The notes under the pieces were generated by a model. The model did no database searches and was not told the DNA's origin. It saw only the letters and a program-made list of their open reading frames with translations. The position numbers and the translations under genes are program-made. 64,000 bases of DNA from Kyrpidia tusciae DSM 2912. Lineage in GTDB: Bacteria; Bacillota; Bacilli; Kyrpidiales; Kyrpidiaceae. Location: assembly GCF_000092905.1 (NCBI RefSeq), contig NC_014098.1, positions 1,922,001-1,986,000 of the forward strand, read 5' to 3'. This document shows, piece by piece, positions 1,959 through 7,897 of the stretch (position 1 is its first letter; each line of letters starts with the position of its first letter).

Positions 1959-3416
1959 TCATGCCGGGAACAGGGCGCTGTGCAGGGCGGCCAACTTATG
2001 CCCACATTCCCGCCATTCCATCTCCGGGACCGAATCCGCCACAATCCCCGCCCCCGCCTGCAGATAAAAGACATCGCCGACTTGGACCACGCTGCGGATC
2101 ATGATCGCGAGATTCACGTTGCCCCTCCAATCGATGAACCCCACCGCGCCCCCGTAGGGCCCGCGGTCGAACGACTCCAGCTCGTCGATGATCTCCATGG
2201 CCCGGACCTTCGGCGTCCCGCTCAGGGTCCCGGCCGGAAACGTCGCCAGGATCGCCTGAAGAGGCTTCACCTCGGGTCGCAGCTCCCCCCGCACATGAGA
2301 CACGATGTGGAACACGTGGGAGTACTCTTCCACCACCATGAGTTGCTCCACCACCACCGTCCCCGGCCGGCACACCCGTCCCAGGTCGTTGCGACATAGG
2401 TCCACCAACATCAGATGCTCCGCCCGCTCCTTCTCATCCCCGAGCAAATCTTCCACCAACCGCCGGTTCTCCTCCGCCGTCTTGCCCTTGCCCTTGGACG
2501 TCCCGGCGATCGGGCGCATCTGCGCCACCCCGTCCTGCACCCGCAGCTGTACCTCGGGACTGGCCCCGAAGATCCGCGAGTCGCCGTAATCCGCGTAAAA
2601 CATGAACGGGGAGGGATTGCACCGCCGGAGCCGGTCGTAAACCACCAGGGGATCGGCCGCACTATTCACCTGAATCCGCATGGACGGCACGATCTGAAAA
2701 ATGTCCCCGTCCGCGATGTAGTTCTTGGCTTTCTCCACCCGCCGCACAAATTCTTCTTCTGTGACATCCTGTTTGACCGACAGCACCGGAGCCACGTCCC
2801 GGGGAAGATCCGGCAGCCGGTCGGCCCGATCGATCCACCCGAGCACGCGGTCGAGGTCGTCGTCCGCCTCGCCGAACCGGTGGGCAAACACTTCAAGCCC
2901 CTCATCGGTCACATGAACCACCGAGCGATGCACCTGCAGCCGGATGTCGTCGAGCTGCCGGTCGTCCACCGTGGTGTGGGGCAGCCGTTCAAAATACCGA
3001 ATCGCGTCGTACGCCACATAGCCGAGAAAGCCCCCGGCAAAGGCCGGCAGATCCTCCACCGGGGCAAACACGCCAGATACCGCCGCCAGGACCTCCGCCG
3101 GGTCTCCGGCAATCTCCGAACCTTCCACCAGCCGCTCTTGAGCCAAACGCCGCTTGACCGCATCCACCAATGCCTCGTCTCCCGTCACGTCAATGCGGTT
3201 CCTCTTGAATCGCAGTTCCAACACGGGATCGGCCGCCACGATGGCCAAGCGGTGCCGCTCCCTGGGGTCCGACACCGAATCCAGAAGAAACACCCGCCGG
3301 GCTCCCAGCTCCTCGGCGATCACCCGGAACAAAGCAAAGGCATCCGACCCGGGTCGGCGGAGGACCGCCCGGCGACGGGTGGCGACAGGGATTCGAATCC
3401 CTCCGGCGACGCTCAC
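1959..3416 (-). CDS. trpE: Anthranilate synthase component I (chorismate-binding)
   Basis: Converts chorismate plus ammonia to anthranilate, the first tryptophan step. The 485-residue protein has an N-terminal component-I domain and a chorismate-binding domain with [10 protein letters not shown]-, [12 protein letters not shown]-, [19 protein letters not shown]- and [12 protein letters not shown]-type blocks. The key loop reads PIAGT. Aminodeoxychorismate synthases of the PIKGT type have Lys at this place, so Ala favours TrpE over PabB. The residues after PIAGT are SKGKGKT rather than the usual RPRG. The GTG at 3416 overlaps the trpG stop by 4 bp (GTGA), showing coupled translation. No other trp genes are in the window, so a PabB role is not fully excluded. 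Confidence 0.87.
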
Positions 3417-4021
3417 CGCACGCCACCCCCCGCCGCAAGAAGGACCGGCTCCGCATCGGCCACCCCGAGAAAATCGGCCAGAATCTTCATCCCGCCTTCG
3501 GTCAGGATCGATTCGGGGTGAAACTGCACCCCATACACCTGCAAATTCCGATGGCAAATCGCCATCACTTCATCTTCCTCGCTCCATGCAGTGGTCTTTA
3601 ACTCCGGAGGCAAACTTGCCGGATCGACGATCAGGGAGTGATAACGGGTGGCGCGAAAGGGGTTGGGGAGACGGGAGAATGGAAACGATCCGTCGTGGAA
3701 AATCATCGAGGTCTTGCCGTGCATCAGCCGCCGGGCGTGAACCACCTTCCCTCCGAAGACCTCGGCAATGGCTTGATGGCCAAGACACACCCCGAGCAAG
3801 GGCACCTTACCGGCAAATCGTTCGATCACCTTCATCGAAATGCCGGCGTCCCCAGGTGTCCCCGGACCCGGCGAAATCACCACATGGGTGTACGTTTCGG
3901 GATCCAATTCTTCGGCGGTCACGACATCGTTTCGCACGACGCGCACAGGCATTCCCAAAATCTCAATATACTGGACGAGGTTGTACGTGAACGAATCATA
4001 GTTATCGATCATCAAGACCAA
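3413..4021 (-). CDS. trpG: Anthranilate/aminodeoxychorismate synthase glutamine amidotransferase subunit
   Basis: Class I glutamine amidotransferase that supplies ammonia to TrpE. The 202 residues contain the oxyanion loop SPGPGTP, nucleophile C79 in GVCLGHQ, and H168/E170 in FHPES. The start is TTG at 4021, because GAGGAGGG lies 6 nt upstream; the ATG nine bases further in is too far from that site. In other Bacilli this subunit is shared with folate synthesis, and the same double use is possible here. Its ribosome binding site lies inside a run of GAG triplets that looks like a TRAP target (see the separate entry). Confidence 0.9.
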
Positions 4022-4029
4022 GGGAGACC

Positions 4030-4065
4030 CTCCTCATCTCAACTCATCTCGACTCTGCTCTTCTC
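4030..4065 (-). promoter_or_regulatory. Putative TRAP (MtrB) RNA-binding site over the trpG ribosome binding site
   Basis: The transcript carries GAG triplets ending at 4065, 4060, 4055, 4050, 4045, 4040 and 4035, each separated by exactly two nucleotides, then one more GAG directly adjoining at 4032. Further GAGs lie upstream at 4076, 4099 and 4103. TRAP is known to bind about 9-11 (G/U)AG triplets spaced by 2-3 nt, and in B. subtilis it represses trpG translation by covering the SD. The last two triplets here are part of the SD GAGGAGGG, so the same mechanism is inferred. Confidence 0.7.
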
Positions 4066-4127
4066 CGCCTTTTCTCCAAGTGGAGCGCCGCACGCCCTCA
4101 CTCCACCGGATCCCCCGGATTGGCCTC

Positions 4128-4157
4128 ATTCTATCCCTTCGAGATTCCGCCTGTCAA
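4128..4157 (-). promoter_or_regulatory. SigA-type promoter of trpG-trpE
   Basis: TTGACA and TAGAAT separated by 18 bp, read on the minus strand, about 107 bp before the trpG start. The leader made from it carries the GAG triplet run. Confidence 0.75.
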
Positions 4158-5132: not shown

Positions 5133-5209
5133 TGGCGGAGCTGACGGGATTCGAACCCGCGATCTCCTGCGTGACAGGCAGGCGTGTTGGGCCTCTACAC
5201 TACAGCTCC
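5133..5209 (-). tRNA. tRNA-Asp (GTC)
   Basis: Full cloverleaf on the minus strand with T-loop GGTTCGAATCC, anticodon GTC (5173-5175 on the plus strand as gac) and encoded CCA. Last gene of the six-tRNA operon. Confidence 0.96.
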
Positions 5210-5213
5210 AATA

Positions 5214-5290
5214 TGGTTGCGGGGACAGGATTCGAACCTGCGACCTTCGGGTTATGAGCCCGACGAGCTGCCAGACTGCTCCACCCCGCG
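5214..5290 (-). tRNA. Initiator tRNA-fMet (CAT)
   Basis: Cloverleaf with anticodon CAT. The unpaired C1/A72 at the acceptor end and the GGG/CCC pairs of the anticodon stem mark it as the initiator. CCA is encoded. Confidence 0.94.
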
Positions 5291-5296
5291 ACGTTT

Positions 5297-5371
5297 TGGT
5301 GACCCCAGGGGGATTCGAACCCCCGTTACCGCCGTGAAAGGGCGGTGTCTTAACCACTTGACCATGGGGCC
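5297..5371 (-). tRNA. tRNA-Glu (TTC)
   Basis: 75-nt cloverleaf, anticodon TTC in a CGCCC/GGGCG-type stem, encoded CCA. Confidence 0.96.
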
Positions 5372-5372
5372 T

Positions 5373-5447
5373 TGGCTCCCCGGGCAGGATTCGAACCTGC
5401 GACCACCCGGTTAACAGCCGGACGCTCTACCACTGAGCTACCGAGGA
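5373..5447 (-). tRNA. tRNA-Asn (GTT), first copy
   Basis: Cloverleaf with anticodon GTT and encoded CCA. The sequence is identical to the tRNA-Asn at 32643-32717. Confidence 0.96.
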
Positions 5448-5468
5448 ACGGTCGCCTTGTCCAAGGCG

Positions 5469-5544
<76 letters not shown>

Positions 5545-5547
5545 ACG

Positions 5548-5632
5548 TGGTGCCGAAGGTCGGACTCGAACCGACATGGGTTTCCCCGCACGATTTTGAG
5601 TCGTGTGCGTCTGCCAATTCCGCCACTTCGGC
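5548..5632 (-). tRNA. tRNA-Leu (CAA)
   Basis: 85-nt class II tRNA with a long variable arm, anticodon CAA and encoded CCA. First gene of the operon. Confidence 0.95.
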
Positions 5633-6974: not shown

Positions 6975-7727
6975 TTACTCCCCCAAAATTTGCACGGTCA
7001 CCTGTTGCATGCCGATGTCGAGCAGCTGTTCCTGATCCAGCGGCAAGAACACGTCGATACGATTGCCCTGGATGGCTCCTCCCATGTCCGAGGCCACGGC
7101 ATAAAAACCGTCCTGCGAGATCCCCGGAGCGTGAAAACCTTTGATCAGCACCCGGGATCCCAGTGGAATCACCTTCGGATCCACGGCCACTACGCCGACG
7201 TGCAAAGGCTGGCCAAAAGCATCCACATCCCCGTATGGGCCGGAGTTTCCCGGCCCATACACCGTGGCGGTCATGGTCCTGACCGCCCCCTGGGAAGGCG
7301 CTTGGGCCTGCTGCTGAACCGTCTGTCGGTTCACGGGCTTCACGCTCACCGCCGTCGCCGCAGGTTTTGGTGCCGTCCGCCGGACTTCCTTCTTCACGGG
7401 AGCCGGCTCGGGAGCCTTGGCGGGCGGTTCGGAAACCTCCGCAGGTCGCCCGTTGCCCTGGGTGGAGTTTTGCGGAGCGGGAGCGGCCGATTCACCCGGC
7501 GCCGGGGCCGGCTGTGCCTTGGATCCCTCATCCCCGCGATGCACGGTCACGGTTGCCCCGGCCTCGGTCGGCGAAAGGGAGCGACTCGCCAATCCGGAGA
7601 CACCGTCACCGCCATCAGATTTGACCGAAAAAGCGTGATTCAGGGAGGGACCGAACGCCCCAATTCCCACCGACTGCATGCCGAACGACAACGACGTCGC
7701 CAGCACCAACCACACGGAAGGGCTCAC
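6975..7727 (-). CDS. Secreted 3D-domain cell-wall protein under c-di-AMP riboswitch control
   Basis: 250 residues: an N-terminal signal or anchor, a long Pro/Ala-rich low-complexity linker (about residues 55-145), and a C-terminal 3D domain. The three Asp of the 3D motif lie in DVDAFG, ASDMGG and RIDVFL, as in lytic transglycosylase-like domains of YocH/YuiC/MltA type. The start is GTG 7727 with AGGAGAGAGG just upstream. The leader is a c-di-AMP riboswitch, a class known to control wall hydrolases in Bacilli, so a role in wall remodelling is inferred. No LysM or SH3 wall-binding module is visible. Confidence 0.82.
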   Translation of the reverse strand: MSPSVWLVLATSLSFGMQSVGIGAFGPSLNHAFSVKSDGGDGVSGLASRSLSPTEAGATVTVHRGDEGSKAQPAPAPGESAAPAPQNSTQGNGRPAEVSEPPAKAPEPAPVKKEVRRTAPKPAATAVSVKPVNRQTVQQQAQAPSQGAVRTMTATVYGPGNSGPYGDVDAFGQPLHVGVVAVDPKVIPLGSRVLIKGFHAPGISQDGFYAVASDMGGAIQGNRIDVFLPLDQEQLLDIGMQQVTVQILGE

Positions 7728-7734
7728 TTCCCTC

Positions 7735-7870
7735 TCTCCTTTCGGCGGCCTCCGGGGTTAGCTGCCGGGTTCGGTCGAAAGGTCGCCCGATGACCACCGG
7801 GTCATTTCACCCCACACATTTGGTTCCCCCGTACGCCACGCCCGGAATTTCGGAACTGTGGCGACTCGGC
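7735..7870 (-). promoter_or_regulatory. c-di-AMP riboswitch (ydaO/yuaA class)
   Basis: The minus strand shows the conserved blocks of the class in order: GTCGCC start, GGGGGAACC, GGGGTGAA, a GGGCGACCTTTCGACC-like block, GAACCCGGCAGCTAACC and GGAGGCCG, ending just before the SD of the 3D gene. A second member with the same blocks lies at 49135-49265. The class normally lowers expression when c-di-AMP is bound. Confidence 0.88.
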
Positions 7871-7897
7871 CGGTCGTTTTTTCAAAGGTCGTTTCCC

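Follow-up and report, generated by a model that had tools for sequence, protein, structure and literature searches.

Organisation of the trpG-trpE locus

The stretch of DNA analysed, hereafter the window, comprises 64,000 nucleotides of the genome of Kyrpidia tusciae DSM 2912. Two genes for anthranilate synthase lie on its minus strand behind a leader with a row of GAG triplets, and the features of the locus are given below in the order in which they would be transcribed.

4128..4157, minus strand: sigma-A-type promoter of the trpG leader (TTGACA-18 nt-TAGAAT), with 11 of 12 consensus matches and kept in three relatives
4066..4103, minus strand: irregular upstream part of the array, with GAG triplets at 4103, 4099 and 4076 and an AAG at 4071; the register is not conserved between genomes
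4030..4065, minus strand: core TRAP-type site, seven GAG triplets (4065-4033) with an adjoining GAG (4032-4030); triplets invariant in four genomes
4029..4034, minus strand: trpG Shine-Dalgarno sequence AGGAGG, by direct reading; GAGGAGGGT is conserved in four genomes
3413..4021, minus strand: trpG, glutamine amidotransferase subunit of anthranilate synthase, start codon TTG (TIGR00566, 240 bits, above cut-off)
1959..3416, minus strand: trpE, anthranilate synthase component I, start codon GTG (best NCBIfam match trpE_most, 432 bits, below the cut-off of 517.7)

The trpE product carries the TrpE amino-terminal domain (Anth_synt_I_N) and a Chorismate_bind domain. One further chorismate-binding protein occurs in the genome, a PabB-PabC fusion encoded elsewhere, and the gene in the window is therefore identified as trpE. 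The trpG product is the only protein of the trpG/pabA type in the genome, and therefore probably serves both anthranilate synthase and aminodeoxychorismate synthase; two weaker matches, at 32-33% identity, probably represent the small subunit of carbamoyl-phosphate synthase. The trpG start codon is ATG in the relatives G001 and Kyrpidia sp. Bu79, as against TTG here. The stop codon of trpG and the start codon of trpE overlap as GTGA (3416-3413), an arrangement shared by three of the four genomes; in the fourth, G001, the junction differs and trpG ends with GGATGATG. Downstream of trpE, at a distance of 126 nt, lies murT, which may have its own promoter and therefore need not belong to the trpG-trpE transcript. 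An initial annotation, made from the sequence alone, had described the GTGA overlap and placed the pair outside a normal trp operon, and both statements held: trpDCFBA is encoded separately. Also on the minus strand of the window are a cluster of six tRNA genes (5136-5632) and a c-di-AMP riboswitch (RF00379, 77 bits; 7732-7881) upstream of an open reading frame spanning 6975-7727.

The GAG array of the trpG leader

Positions 4065-4033 of the minus strand read GAGAAGAGCAGAGTCGAGATGAGTTGAGATGAG, in which seven GAG triplets follow one another at exact 5-nt steps. An eighth GAG (4032-4030) adjoins the array and sits within the Shine-Dalgarno sequence, so that the GAG triplets of the leader start at 4127, 4103, 4099, 4076, 4065, 4060, 4055, 4050, 4045, 4040, 4035 and 4032; the AAG at 4071 bridges the triplet at 4076 and the regular array. 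Directly 3' of the array stands GAGGGTCTCCC, followed by the TTG start codon at 4021. The AGGAGG at 4034-4029 shares bases with the last triplets and ends 7 nt before this codon. The initial annotation had reported the seven regular triplets with an eighth in the Shine-Dalgarno sequence, three more upstream (4103, 4099, 4076) and the overlap with the ribosome-binding site, all of which were recovered at these positions.

According to the published rule, a binding site of the trp RNA-binding attenuation protein TRAP has 11 triplets, GAG or UAG, with 2-3 nt between them (PMC3913778); the trpG leader has eight GAG triplets, with GAG and AAG in a 2-3 nt register upstream of them. Genome-wide site counts were obtained by pattern search, which misses arrays with irregular spacers, and five GAG at 5-nt steps were found at a single location in the 3,384,766-base genome, the trpG leader. 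At the frequency with which GAG occurs in the window, approximately 2 x 10^-6 seven-unit runs would be expected in the whole genome by chance. The trpG array had a chain score of 8.1, whereas no chain in 2.4 Mb of order-3 Markov sequence scored above 3.7. A reversed-pattern control was of little use, as GAG reads the same backwards.

Conservation was assessed in an alignment of four Kyrpidiales genomes anchored at the Shine-Dalgarno sequence, an anchor independent of the GAG pattern. All 21 of 21 columns of the core triplets were invariant, as against 1 of 12 spacer columns, which is consistent with selection on the triplets and free variation of the spacers. The end of the array is also kept in Kyrpidia sp. 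Bu79.

Searches of the trpG leader with Rfam yielded no match to a T-box or any other riboswitch, and no Rfam match was obtained at the trpD, trpB2, pabBC and mtrB loci. No structural switch is claimed for the trpG leader, because it folded no better than shuffled sequences (z -0.92) and its 5' part revealed no conserved structure on comparison between genomes. No terminator-like element was found in the leader, in which the array abuts the start codon.

TRAP in Kyrpidia tusciae and its relatives

TRAP, the product of mtrB, regulates by binding RNA and is a textbook case, known chiefly from Bacillus subtilis. The initial annotation had held that a genome without mtrB would refute a TRAP-type switch; the complete genome has a single copy (PF02081, 125 bits, cut-off 21.3), and mtrB was found in all four Kyrpidiales genomes compared. 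The conserved core of the product aligned without gaps to solved TRAP chains. It retains the tryptophan-pocket segment GLTRGTDT...QFTEHTSA, and neither the lysine nor the arginine of AIKVRG varies. The residue aligned with K37 of B. subtilis TRAP is arginine here (G000), lysine in G002, arginine in G003 and asparagine in G001; by Kyrpidiales locus, it is R in L001, K in L021, N in L022 and R in L023. A search of the four genomes for anti-TRAP (RtpA), run with no positive control, gave no match, from which nothing follows about its presence.

Further arrays at trpD and at a second trpB

A degenerate search of the same genome located a second array, GAGCCGAGGGAGAGCAGTAGAGATCAGTGAAGGAGAGTGGAGACGAGATGAG, outside the window between aroB and trpD. 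Of its 11 NAG triplets, nine stand at exact 5-nt steps; the array spans both the ribosome-binding site and the start codon, the ATG of trpD falling within the last step. The gene is the first of the trpDCFBA operon, which is separate from trpG-trpE. From a promoter of the form TTGACG-17-TAGAAT, the leader is predicted to be about 90 nt long; it contains no terminator-like site before the trpD start. The array is also present in G001-G003 and is thus conserved in all four genomes. A terminator and antiterminator of the type found in the trpEDCFBA attenuator are absent from both the trpG and the trpD leader, where the gap from array to start codon leaves no room for them.

In each of the four genomes the 5' part of the trpD leader folds as a stem-loop (z -1.8 to -3.9); in G001 the lower stem is altered with pairing retained. 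The first 40 bases or so (L016, 7675-7717, minus strand) are near-invariant in the four genomes, with the loop UGAGAUU. An upstream reading frame was considered and rejected, the frame from a GTG not being kept between genomes, and the stem-loop accounts better for the conservation of this region.

A weak third array, AAGATGAGCGGAGTGGAGGAGAG, with a score of 4.35, lies upstream of a second, solitary trpB (L020, 101-1496, minus strand). This gene is split between two frames here and occupies one frame in G003 (L035). The two genomes differ at three positions of the array, each of them in a spacer.

Distribution of arrays among the Bacilli

The seven-unit pattern, with at most one mismatch, was found in 127 of 399 Bacilli genomes, and mtrB in 272 of the 399. 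Arrays were present in 120 of the 272 genomes with mtrB and in 7 of the 127 without it (Fisher p 6 x 10^-17, a value that ignores phylogeny and genome size and for which genome handles were paired by hand). Many of the 30 array loci that were read precede trpE, trpG, trpD or trpP, and some pattern matches are plain tandem repeats (L121, L131). A clear TRAP-type array precedes trpD in G324 (L130, L175), a 97% complete draft with no mtrB match, in which a gap might conceal the gene.

For family f7, probably the Alicyclobacillaceae, trpD was returned in 41 of 41 genomes. Its arrays, like that of K. tusciae, stand before trpD and after aroB. More than half of the 30 f7 trpD leaders read are long, with the array far from the gene and a T-run downstream, unlike the leader described here, and this arrangement suggests attenuation. 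At least five of the 30 (L162, L164, L165, L173, L176) have the array in the trpD start region, as here.

Six loci (L122, L129, L133, L134, L143 and L146, near position 1500), from six genomes of four families, have arrays overlapping the start of a putative methyltransferase-like gene, whose product has the motif IVFIGRTFEEYLDMF...LDCPAGACSF and weak similarity to methyltransferases. This gene is possibly an undescribed TRAP target.

A candidate translational switch for both anthranilate synthase subunits

Because the ribosome-binding site of trpG lies under a row of regularly spaced GAG triplets and the genome encodes TRAP, the site is very probably an off-switch of a known kind. Conservation of the site in relatives, the association of arrays with mtrB and the second array at trpD all support the TRAP-type switch proposed in the initial annotation. 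We infer TRAP binding, its dependence on tryptophan, translational repression and the coupling of trpG and trpE. With ample tryptophan, the TRAP ring, loaded with the amino acid, would bind the GAG triplets through 4033, placing the AGGAGG in or against the bound RNA and blocking ribosomes at the trpG start. Translation of trpE would fall with that of trpG, because trpE starts within the trpG stop codon and would be coupled to it there. When tryptophan is scarce, TRAP would release the leader, and TrpG and TrpE would both be made. Two observations count against this explanation. Eight GAG triplets and two or three looser ones face a ring that is probably an 11-mer, and the position equivalent to K37 is arginine here and lysine, arginine or asparagine in relatives.

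Besides covering the ribosome-binding site, TRAP may also halt transcription in this leader. A bound ring might instead act mainly on transcription by halting RNA polymerase in the trpG leader. In B. subtilis TRAP can terminate transcription independently of the trp attenuator (PMC3913778), and most related trpD leaders with long spacing have attenuator-like T-runs downstream of the array. At trpG, however, the array overlaps the Shine-Dalgarno sequence itself and extends to the start codon, and the leader has no terminator-like element downstream of the array; we regard a mainly transcriptional effect as improbable. A role unrelated to TRAP, in which the purine-rich row serves as a translation enhancer, as an extended Shine-Dalgarno sequence or a ribosome standby region, might be read from the resemblance of a GAG-rich stretch before a start codon to repeated Shine-Dalgarno cores. 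Such a role would not account for an exact 5-nt period preserved alongside free spacers, for the location of arrays at tryptophan genes and their co-occurrence with mtrB, or for the presence of another such array at trpD in K. tusciae, and is very improbable. That the row is a functionless chance run or simple-sequence repeat, such as the tandem repeats matched elsewhere, is scarcely credible given the minute number of such runs expected, spacers that are not repeated and triplets that stay constant in four genomes while the spacers change.

Relation to known TRAP targets

The translational switch proposed for trpG has a close counterpart in B. subtilis, where the TRAP site of trpG (pabA) was reportedly described by Yang et al. 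in 1995 and Du et al. in 1997 (both cited in PMC4347634). In both species TRAP is encoded in the genome, and GAG-type triplets spaced at 5-nt steps overlie the ribosome-binding site of trpG. The B. subtilis gene is located in the folate operon, whereas here trpG heads a trpG-trpE pair, so that one site could reach both subunits, and aminodeoxychorismate synthase is represented by the PabB-PabC fusion encoded elsewhere. In B. subtilis the Shine-Dalgarno sequences of trpG and trpP are covered by TRAP, which represses both genes in this way, and trpE and trpD are also listed as translationally repressed (PMC13170310). The covering of the Shine-Dalgarno sequence at the B. subtilis trpP and ycbK sites is shared with the reading given here, although the genes differ (PMC13170310).

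The trpD array resembles the B. subtilis trpEDCFBA leader, the site of TRAP attenuation, in its 11 triplets (PMC3913778). It differs in that the array enters the trpD start codon behind a predicted leader of some 90 nt with no terminator-like element, and in that trpE lies outside the trpD operon. A conserved 5' stem-loop precedes the triplets in both leaders; that of B. subtilis is said to be needed by TRAP (Du et al. in 2000, cited in PMC3913778), and one might guess by analogy that the K. tusciae stem-loop does the same job. Direct covering by TRAP seems to operate at trpD as well, at the head of genes that B. subtilis controls by attenuation.

Both main transcripts carry arrays at their start regions without terminator-like elements and would thus be under translation-start control rather than attenuation. 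We lean towards a scheme in which TRAP of the Kyrpidiales would control the pathway only at translation start and without attenuators, at trpG, trpD and a vestigial array on the spare trpB. Control of trpG by TRAP is textbook knowledge, and the trpG site, taken alone, is a confirmed and anticipated case of a known class. The split layout, translational throughout, is a variant of known TRAP control; no description of it was found in the literature searched, outside which most subscription papers and comparative trp studies fell, and an earlier description is possible.

Arrays overlapping the start region and attenuator-like leaders both occur at trpD within one related family, so attenuation and translational repression appear to have replaced each other. 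The Kyrpidiales, together with relatives that have apparent attenuators at trpD, offer a natural series in which this replacement may be followed.
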